Shown piece after piece: positions 4,558 through 62,713 of a stretch of 64,000 bases of DNA. This DNA comes from Muribaculaceae bacterium (lineage in GTDB: Bacteria > Bacteroidota > Bacteroidia > Bacteroidales > Muribaculaceae). The notes beneath the pieces were generated by a model. The model did no database searches, was not told the DNA's origin, and saw nothing but the letters and a program-made list of their open reading frames with translations. Position numbers and translations under genes: made by a program. Every line of letters begins with the position of its first letter. Position 1 is the first letter of the stretch. Location of the stretch: assembly GCA_017935045.1 (NCBI GenBank), contig JAGBIJ010000020.1:62001-126000 (forward strand), given 5' to 3'.

Positions 4558-5166
4558 ATGAAGAAACTGTTCTTATGCTTGCTGCTGGCCTGCGCCGCGC
4601 TTACGGCCTCAGCCCAGTTCCGCTGGGCGGCCGTAGCCGGCTTCAATTACGAAAAATATCACTTCAAGCAGGATCTGATTCAAGTCGATCCTTCTCCCGG
4701 CTTCAGCGTCGGAATAATGGGTGAGCTGATGTTTCCCGGCATTGGTTTCGGCATGGATTTCGGCCTCAATTACCAGATGCACGGCTCCAGACTGCACTTG
4801 GGAGACCGCCTGATATGGGCATCAGATGGCTATGGCACAGAGCAGAGTACCATGCACCTCATCCAGATTCCCGTCAATCTCCGCTTCAAATACACGCGTC
4901 TGGACGGAATCGAGCAGAAAATAGCTCCGTTCGCCTTCGTCGGACCGGTATTCAACATCAACGTAGGCCATAACGATCTTCCTGCGCTTGAGTACTCAGG
5001 CGGCTCTGTAGGTCTGCAGTTCGGCATCGGAGCCGAGTTGTTCAGACGCTTCCAGATCTCCGGCGGCTACTACTGGGACTTTACATACGAAGCCCGCACA
5101 GTGAAGCTCGAGAACTTCAGCCAGCGCCCGGAAGGCTGGCAGGTCAAGGTAGCTTACCTTTTCTGA
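4558..5166 (+). CDS. outer-membrane beta-barrel protein, paralogue of the preceding gene
   Basis: The protein has 202 residues with a signal peptide at about 1-18 ending TASAQ, followed by FRWAAVAGFNYEKYHF, which parallels the first strand of the upstream protein. It has the same spacing of barrel strands and the same end, VKVAYLF. The two genes are 19 nt apart and clearly arose by tandem duplication, though they have diverged strongly in the loops. The stop codon is separated from the priA ATG by one base, so priA is probably co-transcribed. Confidence 0.8.
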   Translation: MKKLFLCLLLACAALTASAQFRWAAVAGFNYEKYHFKQDLIQVDPSPGFSVGIMGELMFPGIGFGMDFGLNYQMHGSRLHLGDRLIWASDGYGTEQSTMHLIQIPVNLRFKYTRLDGIEQKIAPFAFVGPVFNINVGHNDLPALEYSGGSVGLQFGIGAELFRRFQISGGYYWDFTYEARTVKLENFSQRPEGWQVKVAYLF

Positions 5167-5167
5167 G

Positions 5168-7636
5168 ATGTGCCGCTTCGCCGAGATCATACTGCCTCTG
5201 CCCATACCCTCCACTTTTACCTACTCCGTGCCTCGGCAAATGCGCGATGCCATAAAGGTAGGGACAAGAGTTCTCGTACAGTTTGGCTCACGAGGCTGCA
5301 ATACGGGTATCGTGGCCCGGCTTCACGACAATCCTCCGGCTGAGTTTCAGCCGAAGGATATTATTATGCCCCTCGACTCCACTCCTATACTGCGCAACCC
5401 GCAGCTGCGCTTCTGGGAGTGGATAGCTGAATATTATCTCTGCAATCCGGGCGATGTGATGAAAGCGGCGTTGCCGGCTGCCCTGAAAGTAGAAAGCGAG
5501 ACATACGTTTCGGCAAATCCGGACACAATTCCCGAAGACTTCAGCGTACTCACTGAAAACCAAGCGACTCTATACGCATTTATCAGTCATGCGGGTAAAA
5601 TAAGAATATCCGACATAGAAAAGAAATGTGAAATTCCCAACGTAAGGGCACATATCAGTCGTCTGCTGGAGGCGGGGCTTCTGTCCGTAGCCGAGCGCAT
5701 AGTGGACAAATACATCTCCCGGAAGCTGAATCTTGTCAGACTCTGTTGCCGCAGAGGCGACACGGCCGCCCTGCACGCATGCTTCGATGCCATAGGCAAA
5801 GCGCGCAGACAGGAGCAACTCCTCGTCGCCTACCTCGACCTCTCGGGCTGGATGCACCCGACCGAGCAGCTCCGCCCGGTAGAGCGCGCCACTCTGCTTG
5901 AAAAGAGCGGCTGCTCGTCAGCTACGCTCAAGACATTGGTTGAAAAAGGAATACTCGCCATAGAGCAGGTGGAAGTCAATCGCTTCAGCGGCGTAGGACA
6001 GACAGCAGTGGTCAGTCTGCCCACGCTGACAGAGCCGCAGCAGACAGCGCTGCGCGAAGTGCGTCGCTCCATGTCGTCAAACCGCGTCACGCTGCTTCGC
6101 GGCGTGACCGGCAGCGGAAAGACTGAAATATATTCGCATCTGATCAGCGATACCCTCGACCACGGAGATCAGGCGCTGTACCTTGTGCCGGAAATAAGCC
6201 TGACCACACAGCTGACCACTCGGTTGCGCCGTATATTCGGCGACCGGCTGCTCGTCTACCATTCCCGCTTCTCCGACAATGAGCGCGTGGACATCTGGCG
6301 ACGGCTGCTCCAGACCCGTGAGCCGCTTCTGATTCTCGGAGTACGATCTTCCGTATTTCTGCCGTTCGCCCGGCTGGGGCTGGTTATAGTAGATGAAGAG
6401 CATGAATCAAGCTACAAGCAGTACGACCCGGCTCCGCGCTACAACGCCCGCGACGCAGCCATCATGCTCGCCTCCATGCACGGAGCCAAAGCGCTGCTCG
6501 GAAGCGCCACTCCTTCTGTCGAGACATATTACAAAGCGCTTAACGGCAAATATGGCCTCGTCGAGCTTTCAGTACGCTATTCGGGAGTAAACTTACCGGA
6601 TGTACAGGTGGTGGACATGCGGCAGCAACGCAAGCAGAAACGGAATCGCGGCATATTCTCCGATACCGTGCTTCAGGCCGTGGAAAGCCGCGTCAAGCAA
6701 GGCAAGCAGTCCATTATATTCCAGAACCGCCGGGGCTATGCCCCCATGCTCGTATGCCACGAGTGCGGCTGGACCCCCAAATGCGTCAACTGCGACGTAT
6801 CGCTTGTCTACCACAAGCACATCAACGAGCTGCGCTGCCACTATTGCGGCCACTCGGTCTCTCGACCTGAGGTGTGCCCCGCATGCGGAAGCAATGCGTT
6901 GAGCGTATTTGGATTCGGGACAGAACGTATAGCCTCGGATATAGCCGAGCTGATCCCGGACGCCAAGGTCACGCGCATGGACCTGGACACGACGCGCAAC
7001 AAAGACAGCTACGAAGAAATCATAAGCAAATTCGCCGGCAAAAAGACCGACATACTTGTCGGCACACAGATGGTAAGCAAGGGCCTTGATTTCCAGAATG
7101 TCACGCTCGTGGCCATCGTCAATGCCGAGACTATACTCAATTTTCCGGATTTCCGCAGCGACGAGCGTGCTTACAACATGCTCGAGCAGGTCGCCGGCCG
7201 GGCAGGCCGCCATGATCCGGGACAAGTGATAATCCAGACTGTCGACCCTGACAATCCCATAATAGCCAAAGTCGTGAATCACGACTACAAGGCATATTAT
7301 GACCATGAGATACAGGAACGCAGCCAATATGCCTACCCACCCTTTACAAAGATAATCAATATCTATCTCCGCGCCAAAAACGAGCAGACGCTCATCGACA
7401 TGGCGGTCAAATACACCAAAGCCCTCCAGGCCACGTTCGGACGCCGTGTGCTGGGTCCTGAGAAGCCCTATATCGGCCGCATCAGCAACTACCACATCCG
7501 CTCACTCATGCTCAAGATAGAGGCCGGAGCCTCAATGTCCAAAGTCAAAGCCATCCTCCGCAACATCTACGTCCGCCTCTGCGCCGACCCCAAAATGAAA
7601 TCCATACTCCTCCATTACGACGTCGACCCCGTCTAA
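5168..7636 (+). CDS. priA: primosomal replication protein N' (PriA helicase)
   Basis: PriA is the 3'-5' DNA helicase that recognises stalled forks and reloads the replicative helicase. The 822-residue protein has the N-terminal 3'-end DNA-binding region, then helicase motif I in LLRGVTGSGKTEIY near residue 317, the DEEH box in VIVDEEHESSYKQYD near 408, and LLGSATPSVET near 440. The eight zinc-binding cysteines appear as CHECG, CVNCD, CHYCG and CPACGS between about 535 and 578. QVAGRAGRHDPGQV near 675 is motif VI. The ATG lies one base after the stop of the barrel gene, giving an unusual shared transcript of replication restart and outer-membrane genes. Confidence 0.97.
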   Translation: MCRFAEIILPLPIPSTFTYSVPRQMRDAIKVGTRVLVQFGSRGCNTGIVARLHDNPPAEFQPKDIIMPLDSTPILRNPQLRFWEWIAEYYLCNPGDVMKAALPAALKVESETYVSANPDTIPEDFSVLTENQATLYAFISHAGKIRISDIEKKCEIPNVRAHISRLLEAGLLSVAERIVDKYISRKLNLVRLCCRRGDTAALHACFDAIGKARRQEQLLVAYLDLSGWMHPTEQLRPVERATLLEKSGCSSATLKTLVEKGILAIEQVEVNRFSGVGQTAVVSLPTLTEPQQTALREVRRSMSSNRVTLLRGVTGSGKTEIYSHLISDTLDHGDQALYLVPEISLTTQLTTRLRRIFGDRLLVYHSRFSDNERVDIWRRLLQTREPLLILGVRSSVFLPFARLGLVIVDEEHESSYKQYDPAPRYNARDAAIMLASMHGAKALLGSATPSVETYYKALNGKYGLVELSVRYSGVNLPDVQVVDMRQQRKQKRNRGIFSDTVLQAVESRVKQGKQSIIFQNRRGYAPMLVCHECGWTPKCVNCDVSLVYHKHINELRCHYCGHSVSRPEVCPACGSNALSVFGFGTERIASDIAELIPDAKVTRMDLDTTRNKDSYEEIISKFAGKKTDILVGTQMVSKGLDFQNVTLVAIVNAETILNFPDFRSDERAYNMLEQVAGRAGRHDPGQVIIQTVDPDNPIIAKVVNHDYKAYYDHEIQERSQYAYPPFTKIINIYLRAKNEQTLIDMAVKYTKALQATFGRRVLGPEKPYIGRISNYHIRSLMLKIEAGASMSKVKAILRNIYVRLCADPKMKSILLHYDVDPV

Positions 7637-7805
7637 CCCCCCGCACCCCCCTTGGCAACGCGCTTCCCAACCGCCAACCCGATGCGTGTTACGCCCACCG
7701 CTGCAGCAACGAGCTCCCACAGTCGACCCGATGCGAAGTACGCCCCCTCCGTTTCCCATGGTTTTTGACAACCCTCACTGCGAGAAACTGTTAAATGTGG
7801 CGAGG

Positions 7806-7911
7806 CAGGCCGGAGGCTTGAAATATTGTTAGCCCCGGGTGCTTGCCACCCGGGGTATCGCCAGCAACCATGAAAACGGCTCCGGAGGAGGCGTACTTAT
7901 TCATGGTTCGC
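7806..7911 (+). repeat. foldback repeat, partial copy R1 (left half only)
   Basis: The copy contains the left arm of the family: a CAGGCCGGAGG block, then a GTTAGCCCCGGGTGC block whose CCCGGGT and ACCCGGG form a small hairpin, then CCATGAAAACGGCTCCGGAG and a TACTTATTCAT block. It is nearly identical to the left half of R2 and R4. The right half is missing. Confidence 0.85.
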
Positions 7912-7958
7912 TCCCCGCTATCGCATATATAACGCTGACAATATGTCGGTTGCGGCGT

Positions 7959-8150
7959 CAGGCCGGAGGCCTGAAATTTTGTTAGCCCCGGGTGCTTGCC
8001 ACCCGGGGTACCGCCAGCATCCATGAAAACGGCTCCGGAGGAGGCGTACTTATTCATCGTTCGCCCTCGCAGGGGCCGTTGGCCTACACCTGACCCTGTA
8101 CCCCGGGTGACAAGCACCCGGGGCTAACAATATTTCAGGCCTCCGGCCTG
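7959..8150. repeat. foldback repeat, complete copy R2
   Basis: This is a 192-bp imperfect palindrome. The left arm (about 7959-8012) and right arm (about 8098-8150) are close reverse complements, both carrying the CAGGCCGGAGGCCTG end and a nested CCCGGGTGC hairpin. The middle carries the GGCTCCGGAGGAGG and GGGGCCGTTGGCC blocks. The same architecture occurs in R4 at 10384-10570, on the other side of the PEGA gene. Transcribed, it would fold into one long stem. It looks like a non-autonomous interspersed repeat (REP/MITE class), but no transposase is in the window. Confidence 0.8.
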
Positions 8151-8361
8151 GCGCGCCGCTTCCGACCGCTCCCTGATACACCGCCAACGTAGTATAATTG
8201 CATATACACATCCGTTGACCAGCCCGTAGATTGCAAGTCGTTCGGCGGGGCGAAGTCATGGCGTTGCTGCTTCAAAGCATACGGCGGTTCGGGGATTCGG
8301 GTATTTGGTGCAAAGGCGGCTCTCGCCGCCGAAGTATATAAGGATTGAAGTAAATAAGGGT

Positions 8362-9912
8362 TTACATCGCCACGGCCTCGGAGACGAGGGCTACCGCGCG
8401 AACCCTGATTGCGCTTGTCTTGCCGCCGTTGAACACGTGGCCGCTGCCCATGTCAACGATCGACGCGTAGGAAGAATCAAATTCAGTTGATGACCAATAC
8501 CAATCATCTATTAGCAATCCTTCCCTGCCGAATACCCTTAACTTCTTATTTAAAGAATCTCTATACTTGTAAATCAATTTCAGCCTTTCTATAGACGGAG
8601 CCCCATTACGGCAAGCATAATCCCAATTACCTTCGCCGGCATCTTCCATCGCCACAAGAAAAGCATCTGTTTCATCTTTGATTACTACTCCTTTGGGTTT
8701 ATAATCAGATTTGTCAGATGAGGACAGATTTTTCCACTGATCATCAGTAAAATAGAAAATATTGCCGTCTTTATCAGATACACAAAGGCTCAGGTGCTGT
8801 GCTTTCCGCAATCCATCGCCTTTTTTGCTTACTGTAGTTTTCTTCGTGAGAGCTTCGGCGACTGTGACGGGTTGAGCGGCGGAGAGGGTCAGGTCGCGGG
8901 TCAGAGTCTGGTAGCCGGGGCTGCTGACGGTCAGCTTGTGCCGGCCTTCAAGCAGCTCAGTAAAGACTTGGGGGGTGGTACCGGCCTGTTTGCCGTCGAT
9001 GGTTATGGTGGCGCCGGCGGGTTTGCAGGTCACATCAAGGCGCGCGTAAATCGGGGTCAGGGCGGGTATCTCTACCGTGCGGGTCTCTCTTTCGGCCACA
9101 TCGAAGGATGTGCGGTACGGCTCGTGACCCTCAAGAGTGGCTTCAAGCTGATAGGTGCCGGCACCGAGGGCGCCGCTCCAGCTACCGGTGCCTTTGCGCT
9201 GGCCGTTGAGGCTGATGACGGTGCCTGGAGTGGCGGCGGTCACGGTCACGTTGGACATTCTTGACTGGAGCGTGACATTTTTTACAACCTTGTCGCCTCC
9301 CTTCATGATAGTGAAAGCGCCTTTTTCGGCCAGATAGCCGGGTGCTTCGACGGAGTAGCTGTGGTCGCCGTAGCGGCAGAAAAGTATCGTCTCGCCGTCG
9401 GCGACCTCGGCGAGCTGACCGTCTACATGCACCACAACATTGCTCTTAGGGGTTACGCTCAGGACAAAGTAATTGCCACCGGGGTCAGCCGGCCCGGAGG
9501 GACGGCCGAGCAGGTAAGGGGGGACATCGAGACGCAGCTCGTAGGCCGTCTTAGGACTGAGCAGAGCTATGTCGCTGAAGTCGGTGAAGCAGACGCGCAG
9601 CGTCTCCGCACCGGGACAATGAATCTTAAACTCGCGTGTGCCGGGACTGATGCCTTCGCGGTAAGCCTCGAGCCATACCCAGTATTCGTTGGTATGAAAC
9701 TCGGCATCGCCTATCATGTTGCCGTCAAACTCCACGCCCTGCACCGGCAGAAGCACCTTGACGAGAGCCGCCTCCACGCCATTGGCATCGGGACGTATCA
9801 TGGAGCCGCGAAGCACGTCGGAGACAGGCTCAAGAGAGAGCGGACGCAGCTGCTGAGCCAGAGCCGGCAGCACGGCGGTCAAAACAAGAATCAAGCTATA
9901 TATCAGTCGCAT
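8362..9912 (-). CDS. secreted PEGA-repeat protein with C-terminal FISUMP/DUF1566-like domain
   Basis: The 516-residue protein has a signal peptide at about 1-19 ending ALAQ. Residues of about 20-145 form a region without a domain I recognise. From about 148 to 365 come at least three PEGA-type beta repeats, recognisable by VTVTAATPGTVISLNGQ, DVTCKPAGATITIDGKQAG and the recurring G..Y/H-x-L-x-V...GY pattern. PEGA repeats occur in envelope proteins and next to Ser/Thr kinases. The C terminus (about 375-516), with DWYWSSTEFDSSYAS and IRVRAV, resembles the FISUMP/DUF1566 domain also present in the gene at 60118. A Bacteroidetes promoter precedes it. Foldback repeats flank it on both sides. Confidence 0.8.
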   Translation of the reverse strand: MRLIYSLILVLTAVLPALAQQLRPLSLEPVSDVLRGSMIRPDANGVEAALVKVLLPVQGVEFDGNMIGDAEFHTNEYWVWLEAYREGISPGTREFKIHCPGAETLRVCFTDFSDIALLSPKTAYELRLDVPPYLLGRPSGPADPGGNYFVLSVTPKSNVVVHVDGQLAEVADGETILFCRYGDHSYSVEAPGYLAEKGAFTIMKGGDKVVKNVTLQSRMSNVTVTAATPGTVISLNGQRKGTGSWSGALGAGTYQLEATLEGHEPYRTSFDVAERETRTVEIPALTPIYARLDVTCKPAGATITIDGKQAGTTPQVFTELLEGRHKLTVSSPGYQTLTRDLTLSAAQPVTVAEALTKKTTVSKKGDGLRKAQHLSLCVSDKDGNIFYFTDDQWKNLSSSDKSDYKPKGVVIKDETDAFLVAMEDAGEGNWDYACRNGAPSIERLKLIYKYRDSLNKKLRVFGREGLLIDDWYWSSTEFDSSYASIVDMGSGHVFNGGKTSAIRVRAVALVSEAVAM

Positions 9913-9935
9913 AGGTCAATCAGTATTAGCAAGCA

Positions 9936-9967
9936 CAAAAATACAAAAAATTTGCTGCCTCGGCAAA
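9936..9967 (-). promoter_or_regulatory. promoter of the PEGA-protein gene
   Basis: On the minus strand TTTG (9967-9964) lies 20 nt before TATTTTTG (9943-9936), fitting the Bacteroidetes consensus. The leader to the ATG at 9912 would be about 20 nt. Confidence 0.65.
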
Positions 9968-10097
9968 TACCATCCAGCAAATTACATGATAAGGCGGTAA
10001 AAAGTGCCTTTCAACCGGGATAGCGCAGGCACAAGTGTGGCCGACGGTTAAAAACCGCCTTTCCACGGGGCGGGCTGGGCGGATAATTTTGGTGTCT

Positions 10098-10245
10098 CCG
10101 GGACGTTGGCAACAACCACGGGAAACGGCATCGGCGGGAGCGTCCCATGCATTAGTACGCCCCCGCAGGGGCCGCTGGCCTACACTGGCCCGGTCCCCCG
10201 GGTAACAAGCACCCGGGGTTAACAAAATTACAGGCCTCCGGCCTG
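10098..10245 (-). repeat. foldback repeat, degenerate copy R3
   Basis: The right half matches R2 and R4 well (GGGGCCGCTGGCCTAC, then AACAAGCACCCGGGG, ending CAGGCCTCCGGCCTG at 10231-10245). The left half survives only as a degraded version, with AACGGCATCGGCGGG in place of AACGGCTCCGGAGG. It appears older than R2 and R4. Confidence 0.7.
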
Positions 10246-10383
10246 CCTCGCCGCTTCCGCCCTCTCCCTGATACATCGTCAACACGGCATTCAGCTTGCT
10301 ATTGCCGAATCCGCTCATTTTCTGATATACCGCCAAAACGGCATTATCGCATTTACATGCTAACAATACGTCAGTTGCGGCGT

Positions 10384-10570
10384 CAGGCCGGTGGCCTGAA
10401 ATATTGTTAGCCCCGGGTGCTTGCCACCCGGGGTATCGCCAGCAACCATGAAGACGGCTCCGGAGGAGGTGTACTTATTCATAGTACGCCTCCGCTGGAG
10501 CCGTTGGCCTACACCTGACCCGGTACCCCGGGTGACAAGCACCAGGGCTAACAAAAAGGCCTCCGGCCTT
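10384..10570. repeat. foldback repeat, complete copy R4
   Basis: R4 has the same palindromic design as R2: left arm starting CAGGCCGGTGGCCTG, nested CCCGGGTGC hairpin, central GGCTCCGGAGGAGG and GGAGCCGTTGGCC blocks, and a right arm with GTACCCCGGGTGACAAGCAC. The right arm end is shortened to AAGGCCTCCGGCCTT. Sequence 5' of it (about 10345-10383) also matches the flank of R2, so the repeated unit is larger than the palindrome. Confidence 0.8.
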
Positions 10571-55006: not shown

Positions 55007-56494
<1,488 letters not shown>

Positions 56495-56648: not shown

Positions 56649-57179
56649 ATGGAAATATTTATAGAGACTGGCCGATTGATATTGCGTTCCTGGAAAGATG
56701 CTGACAGACAAGCTTTTGCTGAAATGAACGGTAATGAAAATGTCATGAAATTTTTTCCGTCGACCTTGACCGCGGAAGAATCAGATGCGTTCGTGGACCG
56801 CATCAATGCGGAATTTGAAGAAACAGGCTTCGGATTGTATGCCGTTGAGCTTAAGGCAACCGGAGACTTTACAGGCTATGTCGGCTTCCATCGCTTTAAT
56901 TTCGATGCACCGTACTCTCCAAACTGGGAAATAGGCTGGCGTATCTCAGATAAATTCTGGCATAACGGATATGCGACAGAGGCGGCTATGGCTTGCATAA
57001 ATTATGCTCGTGCAAAACAGCTATGTAACACGCTTTATTCCTTCACAGCAGTTCAAAATATTCCATCGGAGAATGTTATGAAACGCATCGGTATGACCCG
57101 CCTTGGCACATTCATGCATCCGGCGTTGCCCGACGGCCATCGGCTTAAGGAGCATAAGCTATATGTGATTGATTTATAG
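56649..57179 (+). CDS. GNAT family N-acetyltransferase (RimJ/RimL type)
   Basis: The 176-residue cytosolic protein follows the RimJ/RimL plan: TGRLILRSWKDAD near residue 7, DFTGYVGFHRF near 75, WEIGWRISDKFWHNGYATEA near 95 with the acetyl-CoA loop, and NIPSENVMKRIGM near 140. Members acetylate ribosomal protein N termini, small amines or antibiotics; the substrate here cannot be told. It is a single gene between two hairpins, with a -7 box directly at its start. Confidence 0.88.
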   Translation: MEIFIETGRLILRSWKDADRQAFAEMNGNENVMKFFPSTLTAEESDAFVDRINAEFEETGFGLYAVELKATGDFTGYVGFHRFNFDAPYSPNWEIGWRISDKFWHNGYATEAAMACINYARAKQLCNTLYSFTAVQNIPSENVMKRIGMTRLGTFMHPALPDGHRLKEHKLYVIDL

Positions 57180-57198
57180 ACGGTAAATATGCCGAAAC

Positions 57199-57270
57199 AA
57201 GGGGGAAAGAGGCCGGGCGGCAGCAGCAGTTTCGGTAAAAATATGAAATCGCTCTGCCTCTTTCCCCTTT
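57199..57270. terminator. bidirectional hairpin between convergent genes
   Basis: AAGGGGGAAAGAGGC pairs with GCCTCTTTCCCCTTT over 15 bp with one wobble pair, around a loop of about 42 nt. It lies between the acetyltransferase stop and the end of the leftward exported gene. The T-rich side arms suit termination in either direction, though the long loop makes this less sure. Confidence 0.55.
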
Positions 57271-57346
57271 AGAGTCGTATTCGTCCTGACATCATTGTGT
57301 ATAATGTATCAACTGACGATCCGGTTCCGGACATCCTTACATCCGA

Positions 57347-57868
57347 TCATCTCTTTATCCATTTTACAGTGCCGGCCACTGGGAGATTGTCTATCTCTAT
57401 CGTTTTTTTATCATTGGGTTCATCATCGGTGACGATTGTGACATTGTGGTATATCGGATCAACATCTATGCTCACGCCGACACTGCCGCCGCCCAGGTCC
57501 CTGATTCTGTCATCTCCATTCCATATCAAGTAGATATATTCGCCGTCGCCCCGTATATACCACAGGTGGACGATATACCATTCCGCTTTCGGCGAATGAA
57601 CCGAATAGCCTTCATATCCGCTTTTCTTCTCGTATGAACCGCGCCAGTTGGCATCAGTCGTACACTTTATTTTGCCTCCGGGAAGGAGTTGAAAAGCGTT
57701 GCCCTCCACTTTAAATGTGGCAAGAAGCCCGGATGCTTTCTTGCGGGCGACACCCTTTTTCTTAGCAGTCCTTGAAGTCTTGGGCAGCTCTACATTCCCT
57801 GCATCAGAGGGTATCGGGCAGCATACTGACAGAACCGCCATGCACATAATGACAATAATCTTCTTCAT
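57347..57868 (-). CDS. small exported protein, outward gene of the left inverted repeat
   Basis: From the ATG at 57868 the protein has 173 residues, with a signal peptide at about 1-24 ending PSDAG. A basic stretch follows (SRTAKKKGVARKKASG), then a compact beta-rich domain containing FKVEGNAFQLLPGGKIKCTT and EWYIVHLWYIRGDGEYIYLIW (split by short turns), ending KTIEIDNLPVAGTVKWIKR. The family is unknown to me. Its promoter (CTTG-N20-TAAATTTG) takes the -33 box from the outer edge of the left inverted repeat, so it is placed under the same control element as the regulator gene. Confidence 0.65.
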   Translation of the reverse strand: MKKIIVIMCMAVLSVCCPIPSDAGNVELPKTSRTAKKKGVARKKASGLLATFKVEGNAFQLLPGGKIKCTTDANWRGSYEKKSGYEGYSVHSPKAEWYIVHLWYIRGDGEYIYLIWNGDDRIRDLGGGSVGVSIDVDPIYHNVTIVTDDEPNDKKTIEIDNLPVAGTVKWIKR

Positions 57869-57912
57869 CGCGTTTATAGGTTTAATAAATACATACCGAT
57901 TGATATTTTCAG

Positions 57913-57944
57913 CAAATTTAAAGTAAATTGACGAACCGTACAAG
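57913..57944 (-). promoter_or_regulatory. outward promoter at the left inverted repeat
   Basis: On the minus strand CTTG (57944-57941, the outermost 4 bases of the repeat) is followed after 20 nt by TAAATTTG (57920-57913). The right repeat has exactly the same outward geometry. Confidence 0.6.
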
Positions 57945-58005
57945 TCCAATACTGTCCTTTTCTCAATGGATATTTGGAGAGCCGGAAGAATTGTGTAAAT
58001 TTGCA
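57941..58005 (+). repeat. 65-bp inverted repeat, left copy, with inward promoter
   Basis: This copy is the reverse complement of 59993-60057 with only two mismatches (CCGG here, TCGA in the other). It contains an inward promoter, TTTG (57973-57976), 19 nt, TAAATTTG (57996-58003), which drives the regulator gene starting at 58016. The 30 bases between the outward and inward -33 boxes (beginning TCCAATACTGTCC) are fully conserved and are the likely binding site for a shared regulator. Confidence 0.9.
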
Positions 58006-58015
58006 GAGAATTATT

Positions 58016-58615
58016 ATGAAACGAAACTGCGTACCTATGAGTATAAGCAAGAAAGCGGCTATGTGCAGCCTGATAGAGAAGAAGGCCGGATTTACAATAA
58101 AATCATCAGCTGATTTTTCGCGTCTGGCCGAGTTAATAGCAATGCAAACCAAGGAGTATGTCAGTGAGACAACGCTCAAGCGTTTGTTCGGCTACATCGA
58201 GGGCTGGCAGAATCCGCGCCCCGGTGTATGGAACATATTGTCCCGTTTCGTAGGATTTACCAATGAGGATGCGTTCTGCAAAGCTTACGGCCTGGATCCG
58301 GAAGCCATATCCGGTGTCGTGACCGTTGACTCGCTGCCCGCATCGGAACTGCATGACGGAGCGGAAGTCGAACTGCGCTGGTATCCAGACCGATACCTCC
58401 GCACAAGATACGCGAAAGATGGGATATTCGAAATCCTGGAAGCGCAAAACACCCGGCTGCAGGCGGGGGGACGCTTTCACACCGACTGCTTCATCGCCGG
58501 CGACGCCCTGTTGCTCAACCCATATTATCCTCCTAACACAGATGAAACTGAATCTACACCGATACTGTATGAGATTGGCCGGACAGGAGGGATAGAATTC
58601 ACTGTGGAAGCATAG
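58016..58615 (+). CDS. probable DNA-binding regulator of a Bacteroidales family
   Basis: From the ATG at 58016 the protein has 199 residues. The N-terminal 95 residues match a pattern I recognise from many Bacteroidales proteins: SSADFSRLAELIAMQT, then YVSETTLKRLFGYIEGW, PRPGVWNILSRFVGF and a final helix AFCKAYG. This has the look of a helix-turn-helix fold. The C-terminal part (about 110-199) is beta-rich (EVELRWYPDRYLRTRY, HTDCFIAGDALLLNPYYP) and could sense a ligand or phosphorylation state. It converges on the kinase gene with a 17-nt overlap. The two genes have copies of the same promoter, so this protein is the natural candidate to bind the repeat. Confidence 0.65.
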   Translation: MKRNCVPMSISKKAAMCSLIEKKAGFTIKSSADFSRLAELIAMQTKEYVSETTLKRLFGYIEGWQNPRPGVWNILSRFVGFTNEDAFCKAYGLDPEAISGVVTVDSLPASELHDGAEVELRWYPDRYLRTRYAKDGIFEILEAQNTRLQAGGRFHTDCFIAGDALLLNPYYPPNTDETESTPILYEIGRTGGIEFTVEA

Positions 58616-59990
58616 AGTCCGAAAAATCCTTTATTTCTTTGTTAATAGGATCAATTAATGAACGATATTCAGGAAATCTTTTACCATAAAGAGTATTCTG
58701 ATAGGCAAAACCATAAAAGTACATCAAGAGCATGAGCTCATCGTCATAGACCGGATTACCTCCTGTTCTCTTTAATCTCGCCTTACACTTTTCAAAGTCG
58801 CGGCGATATGCGGCGGCTACCTCCTGAGGCGTATACTTATCAATTCCCGGCTGTTGTACTAAGGCCATAACATAAGAATAGGGATCCCTCCCATCATAGC
58901 GCAGATCGTCCGGAAGTTTAAATCCGCTCAACGAGGGTTGAAATGGGGTTGGATTTATTGTCGAGGCATCACTATGAGTTTGTTCAAGATGCTTGGCATC
59001 CTCATGTTTCTCCTCTGATACTGCGTCAGGCAATCCAGCCGGGACATTGACAGCGAGCTGCTCAGAGGATTCAGGTGCAAGATCCGGAATAGGTATTGTA
59101 TCTATGTCGGCGCTATCGGGCTGCAGCGCGGTCTTCGGACGGATCTCCGCAATACTTTGCGATGTAGGCGCAGTAGAAGACAACAGTAGATAGGGCGGCA
59201 AAGTTACACATACGGCTGCGGCCATAGCGGCCGCGATTCTGAACAGACGGTGTATACGGCGCGCACTTTCAATCATTTTCCCGGCATCGGCATAGCGCCT
59301 ATCGGGATGTCGGGAGCGCCCCTTGCGTGCTATAGCGAGCCAGATGAGACCCGGGCGTAGATCTCGGATGAGTAGACTCAGCGCATAAATATCGGCCGAC
59401 GGCCTGGCATCGCTACCCGCCAACTGCTCGGCCGGCGCGTAGGCCGCATTGCCGCCCGCGCGCTTCATGACAGCGGAATCCGGTGTGTCAGCTAATCCGA
59501 AATCTATGATTTTCAAGACATTGCCTTCTGTCGTTATCAGAATATTCTCAGGTTTGATGTCGCGGTGGACGATACCGCGCCGGTGCAAGTAAGCAACAGC
59601 CTCAAGCAGCTGTCGCGCTACATCGCGCCGCAAGCGTAAAGAAGGTTTGCCCTCAAGCCATTGCGCCAAGGTCTGTCCTACCACATATTCCATCAGAATG
59701 GCATCTCCGAGCATCGGGGAGCTGAAGAAATCTACGGCACGCACTATACCCTGATGCTCGGCTTTCATCATAATGTCAAACTCTTTGCGTATCTGACGGC
59801 GCCGCGCCGGGTCGGCCATCTGCGCCGGCAGCAGCGATTTGACAAAATAGAATCTGTCAAAGCGGCGCACACGACCGAGCCGCGATGAGCCATGAGTACA
59901 CAATTCACTGTAGCTTTCCATGAAAGCAGTATCATTGCTGTCCTCAAGATTTACAATTCCTGAAATATTCGCATCATTCGCCGTAATCAT
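58599..59990 (-). CDS. transmembrane Ser/Thr protein kinase (eukaryotic-like)
   Basis: The 463-residue protein has a cytosolic kinase domain (about 30-245). Visible are the ATP lysine in FYFVKSLLP (Lys51), its partner Glu near 70, the catalytic loop HRDIKPEN (142-149), DFGLAD (163-168) and an APE-like AYAPAEQL near 184. The glycine-rich loop is degenerate (SSRLGRVRRF). A transmembrane helix lies at about 249-271, followed by an acidic/Pro-rich linker and a C-terminal helical domain (about 350-463, with YTPQEVAAAYRRDFEKCKARL split by a turn) probably outside the membrane. There are no PASTA repeats. The ATG is 4 nt after the -7 box of the right inverted repeat. Confidence 0.9.
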   Translation of the reverse strand: MITANDANISGIVNLEDSNDTAFMESYSELCTHGSSRLGRVRRFDRFYFVKSLLPAQMADPARRRQIRKEFDIMMKAEHQGIVRAVDFFSSPMLGDAILMEYVVGQTLAQWLEGKPSLRLRRDVARQLLEAVAYLHRRGIVHRDIKPENILITTEGNVLKIIDFGLADTPDSAVMKRAGGNAAYAPAEQLAGSDARPSADIYALSLLIRDLRPGLIWLAIARKGRSRHPDRRYADAGKMIESARRIHRLFRIAAAMAAAVCVTLPPYLLLSSTAPTSQSIAEIRPKTALQPDSADIDTIPIPDLAPESSEQLAVNVPAGLPDAVSEEKHEDAKHLEQTHSDASTINPTPFQPSLSGFKLPDDLRYDGRDPYSYVMALVQQPGIDKYTPQEVAAAYRRDFEKCKARLKRTGGNPVYDDELMLLMYFYGFAYQNTLYGKRFPEYRSLIDPINKEIKDFSDSMLPQ

Positions 59991-59992
59991 AA

Positions 59993-60057
59993 TGCAAATT
60001 TACACAATTCTTTCGACTCTCCAAATATCCATTGAGAAAAGGACAGTATTGGACTTG
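59993..60057 (-). repeat. 65-bp inverted repeat, right copy, with inward promoter
   Basis: This is the mirror copy of 57941-58005 (63 of 65 bases identical). On the minus strand it carries TTTG (60025-60022), 19 nt, TAAATTTG (60002-59995), then CATT and the kinase ATG. Identity stops sharply at CTTG on the outside and at TGCA on the inside. Confidence 0.9.
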
Positions 60058-60085
60058 TCTTCCATACAGCCGACAATTAACTTTG
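60054..60085 (+). promoter_or_regulatory. outward promoter at the right inverted repeat
   Basis: CTTG (60054-60057, outer edge of the repeat) is followed after 20 nt by TAACTTTG (60078-60085). The leader to the ATG at 60118 is about 28 nt. It mirrors the outward promoter of the left repeat. Confidence 0.6.
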
Positions 60086-60117
60086 CACCGAAAAATTCAT
60101 CACTAATTATTCAATCA

Positions 60118-60792
60118 ATGAGAACAATATCTGTACACACAATCCTATTGCTCGCGCTGGCTTTTTGCGGTATCTCAGCAACCAAAGCGCAAACACCTCT
60201 CAGCGCATCGAAGCTGACAGTCTCCGGTAAAATCGGCTATAACAATTATGTCGATATGGGATTGCCAAGCGGCTTGAAATGGGCCACTTGCAATGTCGGC
60301 GCTATAAGTCCGACAGGCCCGGGAAATTATTACGCCTGGGGAGAGACCGTGACGAAACATAATTATAGTACGGACACCAGCAAGACCCATAGAGTAAAGG
60401 GACTGCACAATATCGGCGGCACAGACCTCGATGTGGCGGCTGTATATATGGGGGATTCATGGAGAATGCCATCATTGGAGAATGTACAGGAACTGATAGA
60501 CAACTGCAAGCATACTTTCGTAACGATTGACGGAGTAACGGGGATGCTGTTTGAAAGCAAGAAGAACGGCAATACGCTGTTTCTTCCCGCATCAGGATTT
60601 GCCTCTCCGAGCCAGGGCGTAAGATTTGCCGGCGAATCAGGATGGTACTGGACCGACACCGACTGGCCCAGCCCATACTCATCGACAGCCGATACTGCTG
60701 CCAACACACTGTTTTTCAACAATTCCGGCAAAGCGGAAGCAGGCAATACCTTCAGATGCTACGGACTGACTGTCAGAGCCGTATCATATTGA
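60118..60792 (+). CDS. exported FISUMP/DUF1566-domain protein, outward gene of the right inverted repeat
   Basis: From the ATG at 60118 the protein has 224 residues, with a signal peptide at about 1-23 ending SATKAQ. The rest is a FISUMP/DUF1566-type domain, recognisable by YVDMGLPSGLKWATCNVG near residue 42, NYYAWGETVTKHNYS near 70, DSWRMPSLENVQELI near 110 and a C-terminal YGLTVRAV. Such domains are common on Bacteroidetes surface proteins; their ligand is unknown. The C terminus parallels that of the PEGA protein at 8362. It is not in an operon: a long leader or small RNA follows. Confidence 0.8.
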   Translation: MRTISVHTILLLALAFCGISATKAQTPLSASKLTVSGKIGYNNYVDMGLPSGLKWATCNVGAISPTGPGNYYAWGETVTKHNYSTDTSKTHRVKGLHNIGGTDLDVAAVYMGDSWRMPSLENVQELIDNCKHTFVTIDGVTGMLFESKKNGNTLFLPASGFASPSQGVRFAGESGWYWTDTDWPSPYSSTADTAANTLFFNNSGKAEAGNTFRCYGLTVRAVSY

Positions 60793-60847
60793 TTTCAGAA
60801 AATACAAGATTATTCCATATTCGTTAGGAATTGTCGGATTTTTGATG

Positions 60848-60855
60848 TAACTTTG
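60848..60855 (+). promoter_or_regulatory. -7 box of the leader/sRNA candidate
   Basis: TAACTTTG matches the consensus; TTAG lies 20 nt upstream as a weak -33. Transcription would start near 60859, about 255 nt before the next ATG. Confidence 0.5.
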
Positions 60856-60858
60856 CAA

Positions 60859-61086
60859 ACGGGTGTAAGAGAGCGCCCGCATACAGTACTTCTTACCTAA
60901 AGGAAATCGCCAATTTTTCAACAAGGGACAAAGAAGACCGATCCATCTGATCCGCAATGCGTATGCAGGCAGAAGACGTAAGTATTCTGCCCGCTTACCG
61001 ATACGGGTATGGAATTTCTGTCTGAATGTCCCGGGCGTTTGGCGATGCCTCTTTAGGTTCAGATATGAAATTTTCATACCTTTTTA
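60859..61086 (+). ncRNA. structured RNA candidate (sRNA or leader attenuator)
   Basis: The 321-base gap between the FISUMP gene and the zinc-ribbon gene holds a promoter, about 200 structured bases and an intrinsic terminator (61056-61086: TATGAAA and TTTCATA arms with flanking GG/CC, then TTTTTATA). The two ends pair: AAGAG with CTCTT, AGCGCCCG with CGGGCGTT, CAT with ATG, and ACAG with CTGT, forming a long interrupted closing stem. Inside are the hairpins GGCAGAA/TTCTGCC and TGCCCG/CGGGTA. The shape is compatible with 6S RNA or another housekeeping RNA, but I cannot identify it. A frame on the other strand (60784-61077) is entirely antisense to it and very Lys/Arg-rich. Confidence 0.4.
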
Positions 61087-61113
61087 TATATCCTAATCAA
61101 TCATCGACAGTCT

Positions 61114-61743
61114 ATGAACGAAGAAACCAAATTCTGTTCTCATTGCGGGAAAAAGATCAAAAAAGCAGCCATTAAATGCCGCTATTGCGGAACCTGGCTG
61201 ACTCCGGACGGACGCCCGGCCAATCCCTACGCGGGGCAATCGACTACGCCGGACGCTCCTTTTCAGACAGATATGCGCCAGCTCAGGCAGAATGTAGCCG
61301 GCGCCGCTTCCGATATTATGAATAATGAGCGAGTCCAGGCCATCTCGGGCAGAATATCGGCTCTATCGCCACGCACAGCCTGCATGCTTATCTGCGGAGC
61401 CGGGCTGGCCTTAATACTGATGTTTCTGTTTCTGCCTATGTGGGATTTCGGCGGATTTGGCTCGTTTCCAGGCTATAAGAGCTTTATGGAGAAGAACTGC
61501 GGCTCCATGTATCCGTTGCTGCCTATACTTTTTATCGGCGGAGTGGGATTCACTATCGTATGGGCCGTCTTAAAGAAGCACGCCAACTGGATTTCTGCCC
61601 TTGCAAGCGCCGGACTCGGCATATTCACGCTGTTCGCAATTCCTATGCTGGCAGTACATTTCTGCGGTTACATACTTATACTGCTGTGCCTGGCATGGGC
61701 GGCTGCAGCATATTTATTGAAAGACAAAGAGCTGACAATCTGA
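61114..61743 (+). CDS. zinc-ribbon multi-pass membrane protein
   Basis: The 209-residue protein begins with a zinc ribbon, KFCSHCGKKI and KCRYCGTWLTP (four cysteines, residues of about 7-30). It then has a soluble linker and three to four transmembrane helices between about 88 and 205 (for example LICGAGLALILMFLFLPMW, ILFIGGVGFTIVWAVL and GYILILLCLAWAAAAYLL). The family is unknown. The next gene begins 7 bp downstream and also has zinc ribbons, so the two are probably one transcript. No promoter is visible between the terminator of the RNA candidate and the ATG. Confidence 0.75.
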   Translation: MNEETKFCSHCGKKIKKAAIKCRYCGTWLTPDGRPANPYAGQSTTPDAPFQTDMRQLRQNVAGAASDIMNNERVQAISGRISALSPRTACMLICGAGLALILMFLFLPMWDFGGFGSFPGYKSFMEKNCGSMYPLLPILFIGGVGFTIVWAVLKKHANWISALASAGLGIFTLFAIPMLAVHFCGYILILLCLAWAAAAYLLKDKELTI

Positions 61744-61750
61744 CAATATT

Positions 61751-62713
61751 ATGAAATGCAAGCATTGCGGCAATGATATAACACATGGGGCACATTTCTG
61801 CTCCGTGTGCGGCAATAAAGTCGAATTGGAATTAAGGCAGTGTCCGTATTGCGGCGAGCCGATACCGGCCGACGCCTCGGTCTGCCCTATCTGCGCAGAA
61901 GACCTGACGACGCAGCCTACGGCAGATTCCGGCGCTATCGTTCAGGACAGCCCAAAGTTCCGGAGCTGTCCGTATTGCGGTGAGACAATACCGGCAGGCA
62001 CTCCGGTCTGCCCTATCTGCGCGGAAGAGCTGGCTCAGTATGACGCCACTCCCCGACCGGCATCATACGGCACATCCCTGACACCGCAGCCTCCGGAGCT
62101 TGTGGCTCCGAATCAGGATGCATGCGGCGAACTTTCGCCAGAAGACCATTATGGAAATCAGTCAAAGGACTCACGGATGACTTCAACGCTCATAGTCGTG
62201 GTCATAGTCCTGGGACTTGTCGTTTCATGCCTGATTTACATACTTTTCATAAGCAGGCAAAAGACTAAAGTACATGAAGCCGATACCGATACTGTAGCAG
62301 AGCTGGCAGCAGTGCCGGCAGTAGATACGGCAAATACCTCCGACCCTGAAATAAGCGACGAATATGAGGACGACAACGCCGAATATATGGAATATGAAGA
62401 CCGGCGCGAGTATGAGGATGATGTATATGCCGGTCCCAATGACGCGTATCAGATGAATGTGGCAAACGGCACAATCGACGGATATCCCTTCAGACTGGAG
62501 GGACAATGGGCCGATGGCTCATGCTCAGGCATGTACATCAACGAATACAATGGCATCAGACTGCCTTTTTATGGATATCTTACCGGCAACAAGCTGGAAA
62601 TACACCTTGAATCCGGTGCCGGTACTTTCACTCTCTATGGGGACGACTACGTTCACTTTGAAGGCAGCTTTACCAAGGGTTCCCGTTCGCTTCACGCCAC
62701 TCTTACATTCTGA
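61751..62713 (+). CDS. triple zinc-ribbon membrane protein with C-terminal beta domain
   Basis: The 320-residue protein has three cytosolic zinc ribbons: KCKHCGND with FCSVCGNK (about 2-22), and two nearly identical units CPYCGEPIPADASVCPICAE and CPYCGETIPAGTPVCPICAE (near 31-50 and 73-92), which are an internal duplication also visible in the DNA. One transmembrane helix follows near 147-170, then a very acidic Asp/Glu/Tyr linker and a C-terminal domain (about 235-320) starting GTIDGYPFRLEGQWADGS. That domain resembles the small secreted protein encoded next. The layout matches the gene at 52104. The function is unknown. Confidence 0.78.
   Translation: MKCKHCGNDITHGAHFCSVCGNKVELELRQCPYCGEPIPADASVCPICAEDLTTQPTADSGAIVQDSPKFRSCPYCGETIPAGTPVCPICAEELAQYDATPRPASYGTSLTPQPPELVAPNQDACGELSPEDHYGNQSKDSRMTSTLIVVVIVLGLVVSCLIYILFISRQKTKVHEADTDTVAELAAVPAVDTANTSDPEISDEYEDDNAEYMEYEDRREYEDDVYAGPNDAYQMNVANGTIDGYPFRLEGQWADGSCSGMYINEYNGIRLPFYGYLTGNKLEIHLESGAGTFTLYGDDYVHFEGSFTKGSRSLHATLTF

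Follow-up and report, generated by a model that had tools for sequence, protein, structure and literature searches.

Mirrored operator-promoters around a regulator-kinase gene pair in a Muribaculaceae genome point to a kinase-linked regulatory circuit

Two adjacent genes of a Muribaculaceae bacterium, encoding a predicted DNA-binding regulator (REG) and a Ser/Thr kinase (KIN), are enclosed by an almost perfect inverted repeat, which raises the question of what the two mirrored arms do and how they came to be there. The locus lies in a stretch of 64,000 nucleotides, here called the window, on contig JAGBIJ010000020.1 (numbered C32). The genome of 2.22 Mb is an assembly of 62 contigs and is about 90% complete. 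It was compared with 111 genomes of the genus, 198 of the family and 296 of the phylum, each sample including the own genome of the window. REG also denotes the regulator family, L-numbers are loci and G-numbers are genomes compared. The reading reached here, considered likely as a whole, is that each arm serves as a bidirectional operator-promoter of a kinase-linked REG family.

The regulator-side arm (57940-58005, plus strand) and the kinase-side arm (59993-60058, minus strand) are 66 nt each, stand 1987 nt apart and are 97% complementary. The first-pass annotation had described a near-perfect inverted repeat of 65 bp; the repeat is real and each arm is one base longer. The two mismatches (57982, C/T, and 57985, G/A) both fall inside the spacer of the inward promoter. 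Only REG and KIN are enclosed. When the own genome was searched with the first arm, the second was found at E = 7.4e-26 and the only other matches were two short partial ones of 16 and 22 nt. The other arm as query added one 39-nt stretch on contig C17 (85%, E 9.9e-4), and neither search found a third full copy in this genome. Outside it, arm matches among the 111 genus genomes were weak only (best E 5.1e-5). Rfam had zero matches across 57000-61500. The inverted repeat may be a fault of the assembly, but both arms lie within coherent gene contexts.

Housekeeping promoters of Bacteroidota have the consensus TTTG at -33 and TAnnTTTG at -7, as given in PMC7366714. All four promoters at the arms have this -7 form and a -33-like box at the usual spacing. 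The inward promoters, annotated earlier as TTTG-N19-TAAATTTG, are present as described on both arms. That of REG spans 57973-58003 on the plus strand (TTTG 57973-57976, N19, TAAATTTG 57996-58003), and that of KIN spans 59995-60025 on the minus strand (TTTG 60022-60025, -7 box 59995-60002). The outward promoters, CTTG-N20-TAnnTTTG, are likewise there on both sides. On the regulator side the CTTG box (57941-57944, minus strand) is followed, after N20, by the -7 box TAAATTTG (57913-57920, minus strand, 23 nt from the operator described below), which serves EXP, the outward gene. On the kinase side the promoter CTTG-N20-TAACTTTG (60054-60085, plus strand; CTTG 60054-60057, -7 box 60078-60085) precedes a gene for a FISUMP-type exported protein, the label being that of the first-pass annotation.

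The outward -33 box differs from that of housekeeping promoters in being CTTG and in overlapping, by one base, an element that had previously been left unnamed. This is a direct repeat, GGAC-N6-GGAC when read outward, within each arm. It reads GTCC-AATACT-GTCC at 57944-57957 on the plus strand, and its mirrored copy is at 60041-60054 on the minus strand. Comparative screens identify it as a putative operator.

Inspection by eye of promoters from relatives first suggested GTCC-N6-GTCC. A screen then covered every 4-mer direct repeat with a spacing of 4-8 in the 250 bp preceding the REG and KIN genes, with the remainder of the same loci as background. This repeat came out on top: it occurs 34 times (2.33 expected) and in 31 of 110 loci. 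In these loci the same word at other spacings from 3 to 9 occurred 0-4 times, and permuted words 0-2 times. With near-identical loci removed and spacings 3-9 allowed, it was first of 952 tests (27 versus 1.89 expected, 102 loci). It was still first without the window locus (25 versus 1.9), as well as in 60 REG-chosen loci alone (11 versus 0.47); these were read individually, and the top part of the family-wide list of REG relatives supplied nearly all of them. Another 36 loci (L216-L251) had been selected via the operator pattern itself and inflate the raw count of sites with an outward box (68 of 107). Counts were recomputed without these 36; the resulting set of 102 loci, with near-identical ones dropped, contains 52 operator sites.

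The distance between the operator and the promoter is fixed. CAAAnnTA, the reverse complement of the -7 box, lies 31 or 32 nt from 30 of 65 sites, the chance value being about 0.04 per offset. In the set without pattern-chosen loci it does so at 25 of 52 sites, and at 0 for the other offsets between 25 and 39. Scans for whole patterns were controlled by reading the same pattern backwards. GGACN6GGAC-N(20-27)-TANNTTTG has exactly two matches in the own genome, which are the two arms, and its control has 0. The combined operator and box gave 47 matches in 28 of the 111 genus genomes and 32 matches in 27 of the 198 family genomes; the controls, counted from the listed columns, gave 14 in each. 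Although eight spacings were allowed, the spacer is 23 or 24 nt in 46 of the 47 genus matches, as it is at both arms of the window. The operator runs into the outward -33 box as GGACTTG in 29 of the 47, with N20 (23 matches) or N21 (6 matches) to the -7 box, which is the layout of both arms.

The combined pattern follows the presence of the regulator. A match was found in 23 of 60 genus genomes with REG versus 5 of 51 without it (p 4.4e-4, or 6.8e-4 without the own genome), in 22 of 81 versus 5 of 117 in the family sample (p 4.8e-6), and in 20 of 75 versus 5 of 107 when only other genera were counted (p 2.7e-5). It also follows the residues of the predicted third helix of REG, which were assigned from the alignment. 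Among 99 REGs, taken from loci that were not pattern-chosen and with near-identical ones dropped, a boxed site is nearby in 26 of the 49 that have T45 and K48 and in 0 of the 50 others (p 1e-10). The corresponding numbers in the REG-chosen loci are 11 of 20 and 0 of 40. For REG subgroups without GGAC, half-site screens gave suggestions only, such as TTGG/GGTT-N6 with S45.

A periodicity of 10 bp, sought without any motif, is raised near REG and KIN (316 versus 88). Other promoters of the same loci are also raised, at period 10 (259 versus 129) and at period 9 (279 versus 128), and the periodicity is therefore counted as support only. It was absent from the small group of REGs with E48. A palindromic operator was considered and rejected, because the regions upstream of 109 REGs scored barely above random pieces (mean 6.37 versus 5.77). 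Locus L158 contains, at about 5165-5199, four consecutive GTCC half-sites with 10-bp spacing, which amount to three overlapping sites.

Relatives of REG are present in 81 of the 198 family genomes and in 60 of the 111 genus genomes, the own genome being included in both counts. KIN is within 1.2 kb of REG in 46 of the 60 REG-chosen loci. The order is KIN-REG in tandem in 17, REG-KIN in tandem in 14, divergent in 9 and convergent in 6; the remaining 14 loci, some of them at contig ends, have no KIN within 1.2 kb. A scan of named metagenome-assembled genomes found both genes in 28 of 32 loci, three of which duplicate loci that had already been collected. The window locus has REG beside KIN and the operator at 23-24 nt from a TAnnTTTG box, the two features by which the kinase-linked family is defined in this analysis. 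In the phylum sample 8 of 296 genomes match REG, the own genome included, and the other seven match about the N-terminal half of REG only, inside longer reading frames. These frames with the REG N-terminal domain have about 420-880 codons, for example in G541 and G372. In L092 (3098-3712) a stop splits the regulator frame into two pieces, next to a kinase frame. The viral contigs contained neither a relative nor a match to the core.

REG (58016-58615, plus strand) is 199 residues long, or 192 if translation starts at the second ATG, 58037 (MSISKK...), as comparison with homologues suggests. The protein of the window has no Pfam, NCBIfam or PADLOC family, and no curated helix-turn-helix (HTH) family was among the 17 families listed for 30 REG members at E 1. 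Its structural model has an N-terminal helical, HTH-like domain and a small C-terminal β-barrel, the HTH being weakly predicted, and Foldseek returned nothing under E 0.001. KIN (58599-59990, minus strand) is a Hanks-type Ser/Thr kinase. It matches PF00069 at E 3.4e-32 with 112.3 bits (cut-off 31.7) and has the catalytic motifs HRDIKPEN at residue 142 and DFG at residue 163. Its PADLOC matches reflect the kinase domain and were discarded. One transmembrane-like stretch starts at about residue 252 and is followed by a C-terminal part of ~190 residues. Among related kinases longer than 300 residues, 106 of 111 have a strongly hydrophobic stretch past residue 200 and 97 of 111 have HxDxKxxN.

EXP (57347-57868, minus strand) encodes 173 residues with an N terminus that resembles a signal peptide by eye, has no Pfam or NCBIfam family, and starts 44 nt past its outward -7 box. 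The FISUMP-type gene (60118-60792, plus strand) starts 32 nt past its -7 box, and its product matches Lcl_C (PF07603) weakly, below the cut-off. The tails of the convergent REG and KIN overlap by 17 bp (58599-58615), and their transcripts would be mutually antisense.

In the 52 sites outside the pattern-chosen loci, the outward box accompanies the operator at 25, an inward box on the opposite side at 8, and both at 6. The inward -7 box is 38 nt from the operator in the window and 35-39 nt from it in the other loci having one. The start codon follows the inward -7 box by 4 nt in KIN of the window, L079 and L248 and in REG of L090, so near-leaderless transcripts are predicted. In Bacteroides thetaiotaomicron about 3.7% of 5' untranslated regions are shorter than 10 nt, according to PMC7366714. 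Operator sites lie immediately 5' of REG in L161, L165, L175, L180 and near-identical loci. They are also found 5' of neighbouring genes, several of which look exported, lipoprotein-like or WG-repeat-like by eye. Short frames, some of them alike (SLLSETWK, MPGRDFFIYKIW), follow the operator-promoter in L229 (1751), L232 (6087), L233 (1891) and L239 (3434); perhaps these are really non-coding RNAs.

If the centre of the -7 box is set at -7, simple arithmetic places that of the operator at about -41/-42 of the outward and about -57 of the inward promoters. The former is where a class-II-type activator classically sits, in contact with the polymerase at the -35 region, and activation of EXP and the FISUMP-type gene is therefore favoured, although repression by REG is possible. 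The circuit would then work as follows. REG would bind GGAC-N6-GGAC, the two half-sites being one helical turn apart, and would most likely activate the two outward genes from about -41/-42. Through the same operator, the divergent promoters that face inward to REG and KIN would receive feedback. The C-terminal part of KIN would most likely sense an envelope signal, and KIN would change the activity of REG by phosphorylation, a step proposed because of the tight gene pairing and the kinase motifs.

The first-pass annotation had already proposed that the regulator binds the arms. Comparative evidence now ties the core of the arm to the REG family, from which we infer the binding itself. The annotation's idea of the arms as shared control is in part supported: each arm has an outward gene on one side and an inward regulatory gene on the other, and the comparison of loci gives good support to a regulator-bound element through which control is shared. 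The annotation had added that this idea would fail if related genomes kept the genes without the repeat. This is what was found for the long repeat, which is missing from all 15 other convergent pairs compared, and it weighs against the long repeat being the shared control. It is not the case for the operator, because a one-mismatch operator and an outward box persist on the kinase side of L072.

How the long repeat arose can be judged from these convergent pairs, in which the region from 220 bp upstream to 30 bp inside each gene was compared. The within-locus score is 60 in the window and 8-11 in the other 15, against 7-13 in 240 between-locus control comparisons. In a relaxed scan of 18 convergent pairs, operators on both sides were found only in the window. 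The kinase side alone has one in L065, L067, L072, L074 and L124, the regulator side alone in L127, L156 and L157, and the other 9 pairs have none. Among the one-sided pairs, an exact site with the outward box is present only in L127; the sites of L067, L156 and L157 are exact and lack that box, and the rest are inexact. L072 is the nearest relative found (REG 66%). Its kinase side keeps CAAGTCC..T.C..TCCTTTTCTC, an outward box spaced by N20, and an ATG shortly past a TAnnTTTG box. Its regulator begins 38 nt after another gene, and its regulator side has nothing in common with the regulator-side arm of the window beyond matches of 7-8 nt.

Since the operator of L072 is on the kinase side only, and the other convergent pairs have neither the repeat nor two-sided operators, the regulator-side arm is probably a recent inverted copy of ~66 bp, or an older element that was converted. 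The long near-identity looks like the result of a recent, local event. The outer spacers of the arms agree at 1 of 19 positions and the inner spacers at 17 of 19, which puts the end of the copied piece at the outward -33 box. The regulator side would thus have gained its operator by recent inverted copying or conversion, and one more gene would have come under the same control as a result. The first-pass annotation had offered selection, gene conversion or recombination as reasons for the near-identity; selection explains the core only, and the rest needs recent copying or gene conversion. Direct local copies of operator-promoters are present in L220, L226, L229, L232, L233 and L242, and a parallel to the window is seen in L174/L184, where a 19-nt inverted repeat with the operator brackets the kinase gene. 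In L229, L232 and L233 the two copies of the promoter stretch are 0.6-6.4 kb apart.

The duplication could also be devoid of regulatory meaning, the arms being alike simply because they are young. The identity does extend over spacer DNA that L072 has not conserved, and the direct copies just mentioned show that such promoters are duplicated elsewhere. However, in both arms the copied piece includes the operator typical of the family at its typical spacing. The outer -7 boxes, which lie beyond that piece, nevertheless stand at exactly N20, and these points make a meaningless copy rather unlikely. Much the same weight is given to the idea that another transcription factor reads GGAC-N6-GGAC and REG is merely its neighbour. 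The evidence for binding by REG is comparative, and matches persist in 5 of the 51 genus genomes and 5 of the 117 family genomes without REG. Against this, the sites cluster at the 5' ends of REG and KIN, follow REG across genomes and go with the residues of its predicted third helix, and four of the five REG-less genus genomes with a match are 67-76% complete, the fifth being 99% complete.

Two further readings turn on the block between the arms. Long, nearly identical inverted repeats flank it, and recombination between them could flip REG and KIN as a phase switch. Invertible promoters have reportedly been described in Bacteroidales (PMC8748976), and these too have inverted repeats near promoters. 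In the window, however, the promoters are inside the arms, each of which contains the operator, the outward -33 box and an inward promoter in full. Because both arms carry the same parts, inversion would return nearly the same promoters to all four genes, and only the leaders would travel with their genes. Which gene has a promoter would not change, and such a switch is improbable. Still less probable, to the point of being nearly dismissed, is a mobile cassette with the arms as its terminal inverted repeats. The 66-bp arms do resemble terminal repeats around two genes, but neither gene is a transposase, further full copies are lacking in the own genome and matches in the genus are weak, no direct repeat is seen by eye in the outer flanks adjoining the arms, and the two genes are found together in many different orders. 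Neither of these two readings fits the window.

Other repeats were noted in the same genome. A 27-nt inverted repeat in L066, its third REG/KIN locus, was dropped as a second mirrored case because the element has 33 genome-wide matches at up to 2 mismatches (backwards control 0). This element, GTTGTTAAACAGCCTCT with variants (e.g. C34:53435-53451 and 56440-56456 in G000, the own genome), resembles an interspersed repeat. The window itself has three copies of a 189-nt repeat at 7781-10547, 66-91% identical to the reference copy, beside inverted partners around a CCCGGGTGCTTG...CACCCGGGG core. A zinc-ribbon gene at 61841-62032, adjoining another zinc-ribbon gene, contains two 66-nt copies at 126-nt spacing that are 85% identical.

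The operator-promoter circuit proposed here has known counterparts in part. The mycobacterial PknH and EmbR are a Ser/Thr kinase and its cognate regulator. As in that pair, the gene for a membrane Ser/Thr kinase accompanies that of a DNA-binding protein, a possible substrate of the kinase. Unlike in that pair, REG has no domain recognised by sequence, is predicted from its model to combine an HTH-like domain with a small β-barrel, and has a direct-repeat operator that adjoins a Bacteroidota promoter. Regulators of the XRE or lambda-repressor-like HTH type (Stl, phage repressors, HTH_3) are another known system close to this one, and REG has no curated HTH match.

A family-wide signalling system of kinase, regulator and operator looks new; no description of such a module was recognised in the literature searched, mostly outside subscription journals. 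To our knowledge, Ser/Thr kinases are common in these bacteria, and what they control is largely unknown. The present analysis yields a concrete partner protein and DNA site, names target genes, and predicts where that site stands with respect to the promoter. It is about an even bet that the module is general: many members of one Bacteroidales family would have several copies of it per genome, each made up of a transmembrane Ser/Thr kinase and a dedicated HTH/β-barrel regulator. Every such pair would read direct repeats with a 10-bp period, the half-site varying with the recognition helix (for the TTLKR type it would be GGAC), and the local regulon would spread by the copying of short two-way operator-promoters to neighbouring genes. 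The window is a clear case of a gene that was apparently wired into such a circuit by the copying of a short two-way promoter.
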